Positions 8,518-58,621 of a stretch of DNA of 64,000 nucleotides are shown piece by piece. Numbering within the stretch: the first letter of the stretch is position 1; each line of letters begins with the position of its first letter. The DNA lies in NCBI GenBank assembly GCA_944325735.1, contig CALVBI010000002.1, positions 434,001-498,000 of the forward strand. The letters run 5' to 3'. Origin of the DNA: Candidatus Gastranaerophilales bacterium. Its GTDB lineage: Bacteria > Cyanobacteriota > Vampirovibrionia > Gastranaerophilales > Gastranaerophilaceae. A model generated the notes under the pieces. The model ran no database searches. It was not told the DNA's origin and saw only the letters and a list, made by a program, of their open reading frames with translations. The position numbers and the translations under genes are program-made.

Positions 8518-9594
8518 TTACTTAATTATACCTTTATTTGTTGTATTTTTCAATTTGTATACAAAAAGTAAGATTTCAGCTATTGCTTTGTACAATTCAG
8601 GTGGAATTTGCTGGTTTAAATCTACCATTTTGTAAAGAGCTCTAGCAACCGGTGCGTTTTCTATAACAGGAATTCCATGTTCTTTAGCAATTCCTATAAT
8701 TTTTTTTGCAATTAATTCTGTACCTTTTGCAATAAGCATAGGTGATGCCATTTCTTCTGCTTTATATTTTAAGGCGCATGCGATATGTGTTGGGTTTGTT
8801 ACAACAAAATCAGCATCAGGAACCGCATCCATCATACCTTTTTGTAACATTTGCATACGTCTTTGTCTTAGAGCAGCCTTTACGTTTGGGTCACCTTCTG
8901 TGTTTTTATATTCATCTTTAATTTCTTTGAATGACATTTTTTGGTCTTTTAAAAATTTCCATTTTGTAACCCCATAATCAGCTGCAGAAATTACTAAAAA
9001 GGCAATGCAGGCTTTAAAAATAAAGTCAGTGATAAGTTTCCCGAATTCTATCATAACTGCAAAATTGTTATCGACAGCTGCGAGCATTAATATACTTTCA
9101 ATGTGCTCCATATAAACGCTCCAGCCTATATATCCAAGCAAAACTACTTTTAAAATATTTTTGAATAATTCAAATAATGTCTTAATTGACATAATGTTTT
9201 TAAAATATTTTGTAGGATTTAATTTATCAAGTTTTGGCATTAGTGGAGCTGTTGCAACTAGAGGTCCGACTTGAATAAAATCAGCCATAATTGCAACGAA
9301 CCAAGCTATAAAAAGAATTGGCCCAATAATTAAAACAGCACATTTTATTGTAACAGTTGTAATATATGTCAGCCCTATTTCCGATAGATGTCCATTTGGG
9401 ATTTGTTCATAAAGTAAGGTATATAATTGTACAATTTGGTCCCATACAAAAGGTGCAAGACCGAAGATGACGGAAAACAAAATAAGCAAAGATAAAGCGG
9501 TCGAAAAATCTTTTGATTTAACAACCTGTCCTTCTTTTCTTGCCTGCTCGAGTTTCCTCGGAGTGGCGTCAAACTGTTTGTCTTCATCACCCAT
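8518..9594 (-). CDS. flhB: Flagellar biosynthesis protein FlhB
   Basis: 358 aa, normal FlhB length. The N-terminus (DKQFDATPRKLEQARKEGQV) is diagnostic. Four membrane segments lie within residues 30-205. The cytoplasmic domain carries the autocleavage motif NPTH at 267-270, followed by IACALKY. FlhB is the export-gate subunit that switches substrate specificity from hook/rod to filament together with FliK. It is separated from fliJ/fliK by 5 kb and lies in a run with metF and deoC upstream and a sigma factor downstream. Confidence 0.95.
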   Translation of the reverse strand: MGDEDKQFDATPRKLEQARKEGQVVKSKDFSTALSLLILFSVIFGLAPFVWDQIVQLYTLLYEQIPNGHLSEIGLTYITTVTIKCAVLIIGPILFIAWFVAIMADFIQVGPLVATAPLMPKLDKLNPTKYFKNIMSIKTLFELFKNILKVVLLGYIGWSVYMEHIESILMLAAVDNNFAVMIEFGKLITDFIFKACIAFLVISAADYGVTKWKFLKDQKMSFKEIKDEYKNTEGDPNVKAALRQRRMQMLQKGMMDAVPDADFVVTNPTHIACALKYKAEEMASPMLIAKGTELIAKKIIGIAKEHGIPVIENAPVARALYKMVDLNQQIPPELYKAIAEILLFVYKLKNTTNKGIIK

Positions 9595-9638
9595 ATGCTA
9601 TTCCTTTTAATGAATATTATAGCATGGTCAAATTGTTT

Positions 9639-10289
9639 TTAAGAAACGATTTTTACACCAGAGCTTGTGCCGAGTCTTTCTGCTCCAGCTTCAAGCATTT
9701 TTATAGCAGCTTCTTTATCTCTTATTCCGCCTGATGCTTTTACTTTTAGTCCGTATGGTGATACTGTATCGAACATTAGTTTAACATCTTCAGCTTTAGC
9801 TCCGACACCATTTTTTACAAAACCTGTTGAGGTTTTCACAAAGTCAGCTTTTGCTTCTATGCATAATTCACAGGCTTTTTTTATTTCATCTTTTGTCAAT
9901 AGATCTGTTTCTAAAATAACTTTAAGCGGTTTATTTTTGCAGGCTGCTTTTACTGTTTTTATATCATTTATTATGAAATTGTAATCTTTATCTTTTAATT
10001 TTGATACATTAAGTACCATATCAATTTCGTCTGCACCATCATCTACAGCTTTTGATGTCTCAAATGCTTTAACATCAGATCTGTTAGCGCCTAGAGGAAA
10101 CCCTACAACTGTAACTATTTTAACATCTGTACCATATAAATTTTCTTTAGCAAGTTTTACATAGGCTGGGTTTATACAAACCCCTAAAAAATCATGTTCT
10201 TTTGCTTCTTCAAATAGCTTTATAAAATCTTCCAATTTTGCATCTTGTTTTAATAATGTATGTTCAATATGTTTGTTTAGGTTTTCCAT
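9639..10289 (-). CDS. deoC: Deoxyribose-phosphate aldolase
   Basis: 216 aa, full length for bacterial DeoC. It shows IEHTLLK at the start, the EIDMVLN strand (Asp90), the Schiff-base Lys152 in VKTSTGF, and GLKVKASGGIRD with the second active-site Lys. The enzyme cleaves 2-deoxyribose 5-phosphate to glyceraldehyde 3-phosphate and acetaldehyde in deoxynucleoside catabolism. It starts 4 bp after the metF stop, so the two are probably cotranscribed. Confidence 0.95.
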   Translation of the reverse strand: MENLNKHIEHTLLKQDAKLEDFIKLFEEAKEHDFLGVCINPAYVKLAKENLYGTDVKIVTVVGFPLGANRSDVKAFETSKAVDDGADEIDMVLNVSKLKDKDYNFIINDIKTVKAACKNKPLKVILETDLLTKDEIKKACELCIEAKADFVKTSTGFVKNGVGAKAEDVKLMFDTVSPYGLKVKASGGIRDKEAAIKMLEAGAERLGTSSGVKIVS

Positions 10290-12851: not shown

Positions 12852-12953
12852 ATGAAAAGATTTTTTACAAAACAGCCACAAAAATCTTCCAAATTAAAAG
12901 ATAATTTTGTAGAATTGTCTACTTGCGTGTTTGTCGGGGGGGGGGCAATTTAG
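12852..12953 (+). other. Leader reading frame of pilin 1, closed by stop after the G10 tract
   Basis: ATG at 12852 with AAAGGAGC upstream opens a frame of 33 codons that runs through the G tract and ends at TAG 12951-12953. The peptide starts MKRFFTKQPQKSSKLKDNF and ends in GGGAI. This frame is offset from the pilin frame: one extra G or two fewer would fuse it to the pilin. I read it as the true start of the pilin in an OFF state. Confidence 0.65.
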
Positions 12954-13807
12954 CGCTTGCACCACAATGGTTTAGGGGGTATAGTCATTCTGAGGGTGAA
13001 TGCCCGAAAGAATCCAGCCAATTATTAAAAATAAAAGCTGGATTGCTTCGACTAAAGTCTCGCAATGACAGATTTGGATTTACATTGTCAGAGGTCTTAA
13101 TCACTTTAGGAATAATAGGAATTGTAGCTGCTCTTACATTGCCATCTTTGATTCAAAAACAAACAGAAAAAGCAACTGTTACTAAATTAAAAAAAGCATA
13201 TTCTGTATTGCAACAAGCACATCAAAGAATAGTTCAAGAGGATGGTACTCCTGATTATTGGGATTATGATGAAGATTCTACTCTTGGTTATTCATCTACT
13301 GCTGCTACAAAATTTGCTAAATATATAAAAGTTGGTAAAAACTGTATAGGACAAAATTCTACTTATGCGTTTAATAATTGTGTCAGTTCTTCAAATTTGT
13401 ATTATACTGCAGCTTTTCAAAGTTTCAAAGGTGTAGATGATATATCTTATGTTTTTAGAATAACTGGCAAATCTTGTACCAATAAGCAGGGTAAAAATAA
13501 GGCATTACAAAGTGTTTGTGGGTTTATTTATGTCGATGTGAATGCCTTTAAAAGGCCTAATACTATTGGAAAAGATATATTCGGTTTTTATCTGACAAAG
13601 GAGGGAGTATTCCCTATTGGTTCACAACAGGAGACTGGTATACCAATGAAGGATTTTTGTGATCGAAATTATGTTTGGGGAAATGTTATTCATGGTTGGT
13701 GGCATAATGGAACAAGCTGTACAGCTTGGGTTTTATATAATGAAAATATGGACTATTTGCATTGTGATTTAGATTGGAATAGTGGAAAAAGTTCATGTAA
13801 ATATTAA
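12923..13807 (+). CDS. Phase-variable pilin-like protein 1 (type IV pilin / pseudopilin N-terminus)
   Basis: The open pilin frame runs from a possible TTG at 12923 to 13807. The prepilin motif GFTLSEVLITLGIIG lies about 50 residues in, followed by the hydrophobic alpha helix and a roughly 210-residue domain with paired cysteines. Prepilin peptidase would cut before FTLSE. The likely start is ATG 12852, separated by the G10 tract; as written it is out of frame. The leader also contains a palindromic repeat translated as SHSEGECPKESSQL...LRLKSRNDR, making it unusually long for a prepilin. The C-terminal domain shares VDVNAFKRPNTIGKDIFGFY with the other four pilins (G.K.PN..G.DIF). Probably a minor pilin or secretion pseudopilin. 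Confidence 0.75.
   Translation: MRVCRGGGNLALAPQWFRGYSHSEGECPKESSQLLKIKAGLLRLKSRNDRFGFTLSEVLITLGIIGIVAALTLPSLIQKQTEKATVTKLKKAYSVLQQAHQRIVQEDGTPDYWDYDEDSTLGYSSTAATKFAKYIKVGKNCIGQNSTYAFNNCVSSSNLYYTAAFQSFKGVDDISYVFRITGKSCTNKQGKNKALQSVCGFIYVDVNAFKRPNTIGKDIFGFYLTKEGVFPIGSQQETGIPMKDFCDRNYVWGNVIHGWWHNGTSCTAWVLYNENMDYLHCDLDWNSGKSSCKY
12936..12945 (+). repeat. Poly-G tract, 10 G (pilin 1)
   Basis: An uninterrupted run of ten G preceded by TGTC and followed by CAATTTAGC. In a genome this AT-rich, such a run within the first 100 bases of a reading frame is a typical slipped-strand phase-variation site. Identical G10 runs precede two other pilins (28388 and 31903). Confidence 0.9.
12985..13069 (+). repeat. 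Palindromic repeat-like element inserted in pilin 1 leader
   Basis: The left arm (12984-13018, GTCATTCTGAG...GAATCCAGC) and right arm (13037-13069, GCTGGATTGCTTCG...GCAATGAC) are imperfect inverted repeats sharing GTCATT, GAG, CGAA and AATCCAGC blocks around an AT-rich centre. Elements beginning GTCATTGCGAG and ending in GCAATCC occur as dispersed repeats in many bacteria. Here it is read in frame as protein between the G tract and the prepilin motif. No second copy was seen in this window. Confidence 0.65.
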
Positions 13808-28298: not shown

Positions 28299-28326
28299 TT
28301 GAAAAATCGGAAAGATTTGTTATAAT
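28299..28326 (+). promoter_or_regulatory. Promoter of phase-variable pilin 2
   Basis: TTGAAA (28299-28304), a 16-bp spacer and TATAAT (28321-28326) preceded by TGT. The TTTGTTATAATTA string recurs upstream of the pilin at 57887, and TTGTTATAAT upstream of pilin 3. Confidence 0.65.
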
Positions 28327-28358
28327 TAATAAAGAGTTAAAAATAAAGGAGCGAGTTT

Positions 28359-28406
28359 ATGAAAAAGACGTTTAATTTAAATATGTCGGGGGGGGGGCGC
28401 TTTTAA
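28359..28406 (+). other. Leader reading frame of pilin 2, closed by stop after the G10 tract
   Basis: ATG 28359 follows AAAGGAGCGAGTTT. It encodes MKKTFNLNMSGGGRF and stops at TAA 28404-28406. With one more G, or two fewer, it would continue as ALLSFSSVKYGFTLAEV into the pilin, giving a leader of 24 residues. Confidence 0.7.
28388..28397 (+). repeat. Poly-G tract, 10 G (pilin 2)
   Basis: Ten uninterrupted G preceded by ATGTC and followed by CGCTTTTAAGC, 27 bp after the leader ATG. Same length and same upstream TGTC as the tracts at 12936 and 31903. Confidence 0.9.
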
Positions 28407-28417
28407 GCTTCTCTTCT

Positions 28418-29146
28418 GTGAAATACGGTTTTACTCTTGCTGAAGTTCTTATAACATTAGGTATTGTAGGAATAATTGCAGCATTGACTATTCTTTCTAT
28501 TGTTACAGGTTATCAAAAAAAAGTTACAGTCGAAGCTTTAAAAAAGGTATATAGTTCTTTATCTCAGGCTGTAAAATTATCAGAAGCAGATAATGGATTT
28601 GTAAGTGATTGGAATATTGGAGCTGGGCATAATTTATTTGTAGATTATTTATTGCCATATCTGAATTCTGCTGAAAATTGCGTATTATCAGAATGCAAAT
28701 CTCGTGGGATATATTTTGGATTAGAGGGAAATAAATTTGTAGTTCCTGCAGGTCCTAATAGTATTGATTCTTTACCTGGTGGTGATACTCAAACATGGAT
28801 TGTCGTTCTTGCAGATGGAACTATGCTTTATGCATATCAAAGCCTTTATCATAATTATGTAATTGTTAAGATTTTGGTTGATATAAATGGACATAAAGGT
28901 CCGAATAAAATGGGTAGAGATATTTTTTCTTTATTGTTTTTAACAGATTCATTATTTGGGTCGTCTGATATTGCTGATACAATAATAGTTAGACCTGGAA
29001 TTTACTTTGAAGGTTTTGGATTAGAAAGAACAGAATTAATTGATAATAGTAAATATTATAACTGCAATAAAACTGGATATGCTTTTACTTGTGGCGCATT
29101 AATTCAATATGATGGTTGGAAAATTCCAAAAGATTATCCTTGGTAA
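28418..29146 (+). CDS. Phase-variable pilin-like protein 2
   Basis: The pilin frame holds GFTLAEVLITLGIVGIIAAL followed by a soluble domain of about 210 residues with VDINGHKGPNKMGRDIFSL, the block common to all five pilins of the window. The only in-frame conventional start downstream of the G tract is GTG 28418, which has no Shine-Dalgarno and would leave a four-residue leader. The better start is ATG 28359, out of frame by one G at the present 10-G length. Prepilin peptidase should cut between Gly and Phe. Likely a minor pilin or secretion pseudopilin, switched by tract length. Confidence 0.78.
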   Translation: MKYGFTLAEVLITLGIVGIIAALTILSIVTGYQKKVTVEALKKVYSSLSQAVKLSEADNGFVSDWNIGAGHNLFVDYLLPYLNSAENCVLSECKSRGIYFGLEGNKFVVPAGPNSIDSLPGGDTQTWIVVLADGTMLYAYQSLYHNYVIVKILVDINGHKGPNKMGRDIFSLLFLTDSLFGSSDIADTIIVRPGIYFEGFGLERTELIDNSKYYNCNKTGYAFTCGALIQYDGWKIPKDYPW

Positions 29147-31883: not shown

Positions 31884-31922
31884 ATGAAAAGATTAGAATG
31901 TCGGGGGGGGGGCATAATTTAA
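31884..31922 (+). other. Leader reading frame of pilin 3, closed by stop after the G10 tract
   Basis: ATG 31884, spaced correctly from AAAGGAGC, encodes MKRLECRGGGII and stops at TAA 31920-31922. Eleven or eight G would fuse it to the pilin, giving MKRLECRGGGHNLSSTLA before FTLAEV, an 18-residue leader. Confidence 0.68.
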
Positions 31923-32659
31923 GCTCTACTCTTGCTTTTACATTAGCAGAGGTACTTATAACTTTGGGAGTGATAGGTATTATTGCAGCCCTTACTTTAC
32001 CATCACTTATTGCAAAATATCAAGATGAAGTTCTTGTAAATGCAACTAAAAAGGCTTATTCAATAATTCAAAATGCTTTGGTTGATGCTCAGGCTGATGG
32101 TGGGGTATTAGGAGATAATACTTTTTTATTTGATGTTACACAAAATAATGTTGACTTAGCTAAAAGATTCCAAAAATATTTTAATGGTGCAATATTTTGT
32201 GAAAACAGAAATAGTAATGGATGTAGTAAATATTATGATATAAAATATAAATATGCAACAAAGCAGATTATAAATGGTAGTACCGCAGGAGAATCTTTGA
32301 ATTATCCAAAACTTATTTTAACAGACGGTACTGTTTTATCTTTAAGACAGCAACAATCTTGTCTTAATGTTTGGTATAGCTGTGAAAGAGATGATAAAGG
32401 AAACTGTAAAAAAGATGAACATGGTAATGATATTATGAAACCTGGAAGTGATGATGCTTGTGGTTATATCTATTTTGATGTAAATGGTTTAAAAGGGCCT
32501 AATCAGTATGGACGCGATAGTTATTGTTTAAAGATTAGAGAAAAAGATGTAGCTATATCTTTTTCTAATAATGTTGGATCTCAGAGTCTAAAAAATATAC
32601 TTTCTGGCACTGAGAAATTAATTTATGAAAAGTACAATTTGGGAGAGTCTGTTGAATAA
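31898..32659 (+). CDS. Phase-variable pilin-like protein 3
   Basis: The pilin frame can start at ATG 31898, which lies directly before the G tract and is in frame at 10 G (MSGGGHNLSSTLAFTLAEV), but it lacks a well-spaced Shine-Dalgarno. The leader ATG 31884 has one but is out of frame. The mature part has AFTLAEVLITLGVIGIIAAL and a Cys-rich C-terminal domain with the shared FDVNGLKGPNQYGRDSY block. This locus could therefore be expressed at different levels at 10 and 11 G, rather than purely on or off. Likely a minor pilin or secretion pseudopilin. Confidence 0.8.
   Translation: MSGGGHNLSSTLAFTLAEVLITLGVIGIIAALTLPSLIAKYQDEVLVNATKKAYSIIQNALVDAQADGGVLGDNTFLFDVTQNNVDLAKRFQKYFNGAIFCENRNSNGCSKYYDIKYKYATKQIINGSTAGESLNYPKLILTDGTVLSLRQQQSCLNVWYSCERDDKGNCKKDEHGNDIMKPGSDDACGYIYFDVNGLKGPNQYGRDSYCLKIREKDVAISFSNNVGSQSLKNILSGTEKLIYEKYNLGESVE
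31903..31912 (+). repeat. Poly-G tract, 10 G (pilin 3)
   Basis: Ten uninterrupted G preceded by ATGTC and followed by CATAATTTAAGC. Third member of the set with 12936 and 28388. Confidence 0.9.
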
Positions 32660-43987: not shown

Positions 43988-44704
43988 TTATTTTATAATT
44001 TTATTAAAATAATCTGGATCTCTTAAAGCTTTGGCGGTACAACCTAAGCCATTGTAAGTTGATGTACTTTTTTCAGAACAATATTCTGTTTCATCTTCAA
44101 GTATTGTATTTGGAGCGCCTTCTGGAATAAGTTTGCCGTTTTCTTTGTTAAGTTCAAACATAAACAGGTCATGTCCAAATTTGTTCGTTTTTTTTCTCAT
44201 TCCATTTACATCTATTGATAGTAAATAATTTTTATTAGGGGAGCTCATATCTAAAAATATGCAGGCACCATTTTTAAGCATATATCTACCGTCATTTATA
44301 TAGCTTTCATTTGATTTATTTCCTGTAAAATTTTTGTATAATGTAGTAAGCCAAGTTCCATCTTCTCTATTTAATTCTCCCCCAATGCAAAATTTTGCTT
44401 CTTTATCAGAATAGCAATTATAGTATGGCTTAGAGTATTCTTGCATTAATGTACTCATGAAATTGTTCGCATCTTCTCTATTATTGTTGCTAGTGTATGT
44501 TTCATATCCTGTATTTGTAATCATATTAGTAATTGCTTGACTCAGAATTGAATATTCTTTATATAAACTATTTTTTAATTCTGCTGCTTTATATTTATTA
44601 ATTAATGTTGGTAATGTAAAAGCTACAACAACACCTATTATACCAATTGTAATTAATGTTTCTGCTAGTGTAAATGCTTTTTCTTTTTTTAGATCTTTTA
44701 TCAA
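43988..44704 (-). CDS. Pilin-like protein 4 (no G tract)
   Basis: 238 aa. Leader MIKDLKKEKA, then FTLAETLITIGIIGVVVAFT with Glu at position 5 of the mature protein. The soluble part has several Cys, and IDVNGMRKKTNKFGHDLFMF is the block shared by all five pilins. AGGAGG lies upstream of the ATG. It has a short ordinary leader with no poly-G, so it is probably expressed constitutively relative to pilins 1-3. A-F rather than G-F at the cleavage site. Confidence 0.85.
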   Translation of the reverse strand: MIKDLKKEKAFTLAETLITIGIIGVVVAFTLPTLINKYKAAELKNSLYKEYSILSQAITNMITNTGYETYTSNNNREDANNFMSTLMQEYSKPYYNCYSDKEAKFCIGGELNREDGTWLTTLYKNFTGNKSNESYINDGRYMLKNGACIFLDMSSPNKNYLLSIDVNGMRKKTNKFGHDLFMFELNKENGKLIPEGAPNTILEDETEYCSEKSTSTYNGLGCTAKALRDPDYFNKIIK

Positions 44705-57886: not shown

Positions 57887-58621
57887 ATGGTTGCAAAAAA
57901 AGCATTTACTTTAGCAGAAGTTCTTGTTACCTTGGGTGTTCTGGGTGTTGTCGCTGCGATTACTATGCCTACGTTGATTGGTGGTACAAAGCCAAAAGAA
58001 TTGGAAGCTCAATTTAAAAAAGCTCATTCTTTATTATCTCAAGTTCTAGTTTCTGTTGTAAATGAAAAGGGAATTGGTTTGAGAAGAACTTTTGCAACAT
58101 ATAATGGTGTAACTTATGCAAATGCATCAGAAATTTATAATGCTTTTTATAATAATTTAAAAATTGTTGGAACTTGTAATTATACAACAAAAGTTAAGAA
58201 TTATTCAAAAACATCTGATAATCCTTTTATTGATAGAGGAACTCCATATCCTAATAAATTATTATCAAATGGTATGTGTTTTAATGTTTCTGTTTGTGCA
58301 GGTCAAATTAACTTAACAATAGATATAAATGGTGCTAAAAAACCACCTAATACTTTAGGACACGATATTTTCTTTTTTGATGTAGATGATAATGATTCTT
58401 TAAATCCTAAAAGAATGACTAAATTATTGACAGATGATGAAGTTGAAGAAACAAAGAAGCAGGATGCTGCTGGAGCTGAAAATATATCATCTCAAAGTGG
58501 AGATCCTTGTTCTGCAAAATCTGGACAGAGAGGAAATGGTTTAGGCTGTGCTTATTATGCTTTAATTAATAAAAATCCTGATGATAGTTCTAAGACTTAT
58601 TGGGATAATTTGCCTAAATAA
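57887..58621 (+). CDS. Pilin-like protein 5 (no G tract)
   Basis: 244 aa. The very short leader MVAKKA precedes FTLAEVLVTLGVLGVVAAIT. The soluble domain contains four or more Cys and the shared block IDINGAKKPPNTLGHDIFFF. GAGGATG lies before the ATG. No homopolymer is present in the leader, but its promoter matches that of pilin 2. Likely a pseudopilin or minor pilin. Confidence 0.85.
   Translation: MVAKKAFTLAEVLVTLGVLGVVAAITMPTLIGGTKPKELEAQFKKAHSLLSQVLVSVVNEKGIGLRRTFATYNGVTYANASEIYNAFYNNLKIVGTCNYTTKVKNYSKTSDNPFIDRGTPYPNKLLSNGMCFNVSVCAGQINLTIDINGAKKPPNTLGHDIFFFDVDDNDSLNPKRMTKLLTDDEVEETKKQDAAGAENISSQSGDPCSAKSGQRGNGLGCAYYALINKNPDDSSKTYWDNLPK

Follow-up and report, generated by a model that had tools for sequence, protein, structure and literature searches.

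The question raised by this locus is how a pilin-like protein can be made from a gene in which a tract of ten G residues and a stop codon lie between the only well supported start codon and the pilin sequence. The gene, referred to here as pilin 2, lies in a window of 64,000 nucleotides (the whole stretch of DNA that was analysed, in the numbering of which window positions are given) from a Candidatus Gastranaerophilales bacterium; the genome was analysed as a consensus assembly of 1.94 Mb in 8 contigs. The features of pilin 2 are the following.

28299–28326, forward strand: candidate sigma-70-like promoter, TTGAAA-16-TATAAT, with 11 of 12 consensus bases; suggestive only
28347–28351, forward strand: Shine–Dalgarno sequence AGGAG
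28359–28406, forward strand: leader reading frame as assembled with 10 G, MKKTFNLNMSGGGRF, from ATG 28359 to the stop codon TAA 28404–28406
28387–28410, forward strand: DNA element C-G10-CG-N7-GCTT, the consensus of the tract flanks
28388–28397, forward strand: G10 tract; the frame is full length with 8 or 11 G
28418–28420, forward strand: GTG, the sole in-frame start 3' of the tract, without a Shine–Dalgarno sequence
28430–29146, forward strand: mature pilin 2 (FTLAEV...) including the stop codon, with the F codon at 28430; N_methyl match below and DUF6613 match above cut-off

Matches to the promoter consensus around pilin 2 are no commoner than in shuffled sequence. The gene has a single good start, ATG 28359 behind AGGAG 28347. 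The preliminary description had stated that the leader with 10 G ends at TAA 28404, that the pilin frame is shut upstream at 28373 and that GTG 28418, lacking a Shine–Dalgarno sequence, is the only start downstream. The coordinates proved to be correct when rechecked: the frame is closed on its 5' side by TAA 28373–28375, and from 28376 to the F codon at 28430 it contains, besides this GTG, no ATG, GTG or TTG and no CTG, ATT, ATA or ATC. The claim that translation of pilin 2 has to pass through the leader with its tract holds; there is no other usable start in the sequence. The products calculated for the different tract lengths are of 261 amino acids with 8 G, 27 with 9 G, 15 with 10 G, 262 with 11 G and 28 with 12 G. 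With 8 or 11 G a full-length prepilin is obtained, with a leader ending at G/FTLAEV. The leader predicted at 11 G is MKKTFNLNMSGGGALLSFSSVKYG, followed by FTLAEV, as had been proposed; the naming of 11 G as the working length was correct but incomplete, in that 8 G also gives the full frame.

The tract pilins contain, as a sequence motif, the G/F-T-L-x-E-V site of cleavage and methylation followed by a hydrophobic helix. Matches to the 27-position Pfam model N_methyl (PF07963) are correctly positioned, with scores of 17.7 (pilin 2), 13.5 and 14.9 bits versus a gathering cut-off of 21.2, and the proteins are termed pilin-like here because these scores are below the cut-off. The DUF6613 match in pilin 2 is above the Pfam cut-off.

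The design of pilin 2 recurs throughout the genome. The window contains nine G8 words, compared with 0.06 expected, and in the retrieved sequence runs of C or G stop at 6, with one exception of 8, and resume at 9–12, nearly all of them being 10; the excess of G8 words and the gap in run length rule out a chance origin of the tracts. In the whole genome there are 78 G tracts of at least 8, with a length of exactly 10 in 73 (94%), and 75 can be paired with a start bearing a Shine–Dalgarno sequence on the 5' side and an FTLAEV-type pilin N-terminus on the 3' side. At these 75 loci, where the coding strand carries G in 54 and C in 21, a repeat inside the reading frame decides between a full-length and a truncated product. 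In the assembly a single pilin reads in frame, against 74 that do not. To be in frame, 73 of the 75 require a tract length of 11 (mod 3), and five of the six classes of coding strand and codon phase are represented among them. The ON-frame leaders are open over as many as about 80 residues, some including a REP-like repeat. Two further loci in the window are given below.

12852–13807, forward strand: pilin 1, with ATG 12852, G10 tract 12936–12945 and F codon 13079; the design is that of pilin 2 and +1 is needed
31884–32659, forward strand: pilin 3, with the Shine–Dalgarno-bearing start ATG 31884 and G10 tract 31903–31912; +1 is needed from ATG 31884

The REP-like repeat in the leader of pilin 1 (window 12958–13075) does not interrupt the ON frame and recurs in several other tract pilins. 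Pilin 3 has a second ATG, at 31898, which is in frame with a tract of 10 and lacks a Shine–Dalgarno sequence. The window also contains two tractless pilin-like genes with ordinary short leaders, on the forward strand near 57905 and on the reverse strand near 44674, which would be useful as always-ON controls. At one locus (L095, G000:C2 near 429784) the pilin is in frame at 10 G, with T replacing C before the tract, and this is possibly a locked-ON member.

Internal translation starts were considered as a general escape from the out-of-frame state and rejected, since an in-frame start with a Shine–Dalgarno sequence follows the tract at only six of the 75 loci. It is absent from the other 69, and 44 loci have no ATG, GTG or TTG at all in frame after the tract. 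The earlier characterization of pilin 2 as the cleanest on/off case is not borne out by these counts; pilin 2 is an ordinary member of a set of about 75 genes and no special case.

The sequences flanking the tracts follow the DNA strand rather than the gene. Base counts on the G strand gave C on both sides of the tract, followed by a purine (A or G) and, some 8–11 bases beyond the tract, by the start of GCT (GCT occurs in 15% of random 16-base windows). This motif lies on the G strand for G-coding and C-coding pilins alike, so that in C-coding genes it is found upstream of the tract and reversed. Adjacent tracts along the contigs have the same G-strand orientation in 70 of 72 pairs, compared with the same gene strand in 38 of 66 pairs of adjacent pilin genes. 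Furthermore, the G strand is the strand of positive GC skew at 67 of the 78 loci, and for this reason it is probably the leading strand. With its orientation fixed to the chromosome and not to the gene, the motif looks like a DNA-level element. Pairing of the G tract with GCTY in a hairpin was rejected, as G-strand DNA folded no better than shuffled flanks (39/71).

The range of the element was determined with a strict motif, C-G10-CR-N5..9-GCTY, with the reversed pattern as a control. Within the genus (Candidatus Gastranaerophilales, CAG:439-like) 25 of 33 genomes have the motif; it is also present in seven genomes in four other genera of the family, and is absent from all of the remaining genomes among 383 of the order. 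The reversed control was near 0. The recurrence of length 10 across assemblies of the genus rules out an artefact of a single assembly. Summed over the 33 genomes, exact tract lengths of ten, eleven and nine were counted 1621, 150 and 148 times, respectively, and because G9 and G11 are equally frequent genus-wide there is no sign of the ON state being favoured. Among the relatives' tract pilins, 88 of 101 require 11 (mod 3) to be in frame, and all six classes of coding strand and phase are represented. ON (11) and OFF (9) variants are present in relatives: among classified pilins from other species, 15 of 18 with a tract of 11 are in frame, and 10 of 13 with a tract of 9 still need 8 or 11. 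Only one of the species examined, of the same genus (G002), has broadly variable lengths; its tracts range from 8 to 16 and have other flanks, and four of ten pilins are in frame and six out of frame. The repeat number thus differs between homologous loci in ON and OFF states (G11, G9 and G002 loci), and a varying length with a constant design is what tract-length switching predicts, as judged by comparison across loci and species, with one assembly for each species. MutS was found in all species examined, including G002 (MutS1), which rules out loss of mismatch repair as the cause of the length variation in that species. Tracts with the motif also occur outside pilins, with a length of exactly 10 in 6 of 11, which speaks for an action on DNA. 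Four loci in other species of the genus (L199, L192, L175 and L176) have a tract of ten in non-pilin genes, some in frame at 10 and some at 11; L199 is a glycosyltransferase-like gene that is in frame at 10.

As judged from genome comparison, the tract pilins are gained and lost as whole genes between species. At ten loci, including pilin 2, the flanking genes of a relative are joined with no more than about 80 bases between them, and the same loci in the source genome have about 770–1000 bases that include the pilin with its promoter. As compared with the ten empty sites, the insertions have their edges at the promoter and the end of the gene, away from the tract. There is no consistent duplication at these sites, and for this reason site-specific insertion with duplication of the target was rejected. 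Carriage by phage was likewise rejected as the source of the pilins: 38 viral contigs match the motif, the majority with a GC content well above that of the host, and only one of these, L381 (IMGVR_UViG_2523533517_000007), a provirus end, carries such a pilin. This is a C10 pilin at about 8827–9739 that needs +1 and lies beside a host gene. The host region of L381 has 73–87% identity to the genomes compared, and in the source genome its two host stretches adjoin each other without a pilin.

Several known systems resemble this set. In the case of Neisseria pilC, a G tract near the N-terminus likewise controls type IV pilus biology by frameshift; however, only one or two genes are involved, they encode a tip or assembly protein rather than a pilin, and we know of no fixed tract length or flanking motif. 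Poly-G phase variation of pilC was reportedly described by Jonsson et al. in 1991 (cited in PMC7593972). The Neisseria opa genes are similar in having many paralogues, a repeat in the leader-coding region and a stochastic subset ON, but the repeat is a pentamer, with about 11 genes and broad copy numbers. The poly-G/C phasome of Campylobacter has tens of G tracts of 7–12 per genome, mostly inside reading frames, but differs in its broader length peak (9 G in 53% and 10 G in 26%), an ON share near drift, only 5% poly-C coding and diverse target genes (PMC6321876). The nearest tested case is that of the G-tract pilus clusters of Bifidobacterium breve, in which production of gut pili depends on replication slippage of one base in a G10/G11 tract and the length that allows production is enriched in the mouse gut (PMC9187656). 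These sortase-dependent pilus loci (bbr_0113 and bbr_1889) likewise belong to a gut commensal and have a one-base switch in an intragenic G tract of 10–11, a second reading frame without a translation start and an annotated state that is OFF (PMC9187656). However, there are two such loci, with variable lengths, sortase pili and the tract in the first gene of a cluster (PMC9187656), whereas the Gastranaerophilales set comprises about 75 single pilin genes with a near-fixed length of 10, a shared motif and replication polarity.

The explanation that we favour, with some reserve, is that about 75 dispersed type IV pilin-like genes carry a homopolymer switch that is OFF by default at 10 and operates by slippage at the DNA level, and that they belong to a family found throughout the genus. 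The switch would lie downstream of the start codon and ahead of the site of prepilin cleavage. With a tract of 10, its resting length, the leader would meet a stop and the gene would be OFF, and with 11 (or 8) it would be ON, giving a prepilin ending at G/FTLAEV. The element C-G10-CR-N5..9-GCTY would work with either strand coding, in one orientation relative to replication. This fixed orientation suggests that it most probably works on the DNA itself, by slippage between 10 and 11 during replication, and each cell would therefore express few or none of its pilins. The tract pilins look like a large default-OFF switchboard. We infer that tract lengths change within a population, that genes with 11 G are expressed and that their products arrive at the cell surface. 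The mixture of in-frame and out-of-frame pilins in G002 is as ordinary phase variation predicts. However, with 94% of tracts at exactly 10, the lengths are far more uniform than those of Campylobacter, which could mean that the tracts hardly slip. In addition, genes that are ON at 9 or 12 are nearly absent, although a plain resting-OFF reading predicts roughly as many of them as of genes ON at 11.

The strongest counterpoint is that the offset is nearly always +1 and almost never −1, for which slippage alone gives no reason. It would find a direct reason, as would the keeping of length 10, if the tract stayed at 10 and the ribosome slipped by −1 on G10/C10 (or RNA polymerase added one base), so that every pilin was produced in small amounts with no change in its gene. 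There is indeed a slippery run, with the frame of the product lying one base back (an offset of +1 nt at length 10), 44 loci have no other start and the ON frame is open through long leaders. Such recoding is nevertheless unlikely: the motif and its orientation track the DNA strand and the direction of replication rather than the mRNA, the conserved signals around the slippery run are thus not oriented on the mRNA, some non-pilin genes with a tract of 10 are already in frame, and tract lengths vary in G002. A role of the G10 element in recombination or mobility, comparable to G-rich DNA that initiates conversion between pilin genes or to cassettes that move as single strands, with a secondary effect on the frame, would fit both the fixed orientation to replication, as expected of a single-strand process, and the ten pilin genes, including pilin 2, that are absent at the same place in relatives. 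We regard this as quite improbable, since the insertion edges avoid the tract, no consistent target duplication accompanies them and the constant frame offset is left unexplained. That the true length is 11, with the genes simply ON and the assemblies reporting 10, has a precedent in the B. breve reference, where deep sequencing showed a tract annotated as 11 to be mostly 12 (PMC9187656). Here, a systematic under-call is very improbable indeed: the same value recurs in many independent assemblies, several of which have SPAdes/megahit-style contig names, so that a single long-read error mode cannot explain it; lengths of 11 to 16 are called for other tracts in the genus, A/T runs of 8–10 are present in the sequence and a tract of 10 already puts some non-pilin genes in frame. 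Returning to tract-length switching, mismatch repair does not explain the differing spread of lengths, because MutS is present in every species, including the variable one. A directional DNA process would explain both the +1 offset and the strand polarity. Tentatively, and with more doubt than belief, it might be supposed that a dedicated replication-polar DNA element maintains the tract at exactly 10 and shifts it specifically to 11, or that an equivalent genus-wide one-base recoding acts at a fixed 10-mer, keeping at least 75 pilins almost silent.

An open-access search, with most subscription journals outside it, found no literature linking Gastranaerophilales with tract-switched pilins. 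To our knowledge, what is new compared with known tract-switched pili is the size of the repertoire, nearly all of it OFF, the near-invariant length and the fixed orientation to replication. For annotation, automatic pipelines would label most of the tract pilins as truncated or as pseudogenes. For the biology of this genus, the finding would open two questions to testing: how a homopolymer tract is held at one length genus-wide, and how the surface is diversified in an uncultured gut relative of the cyanobacteria.
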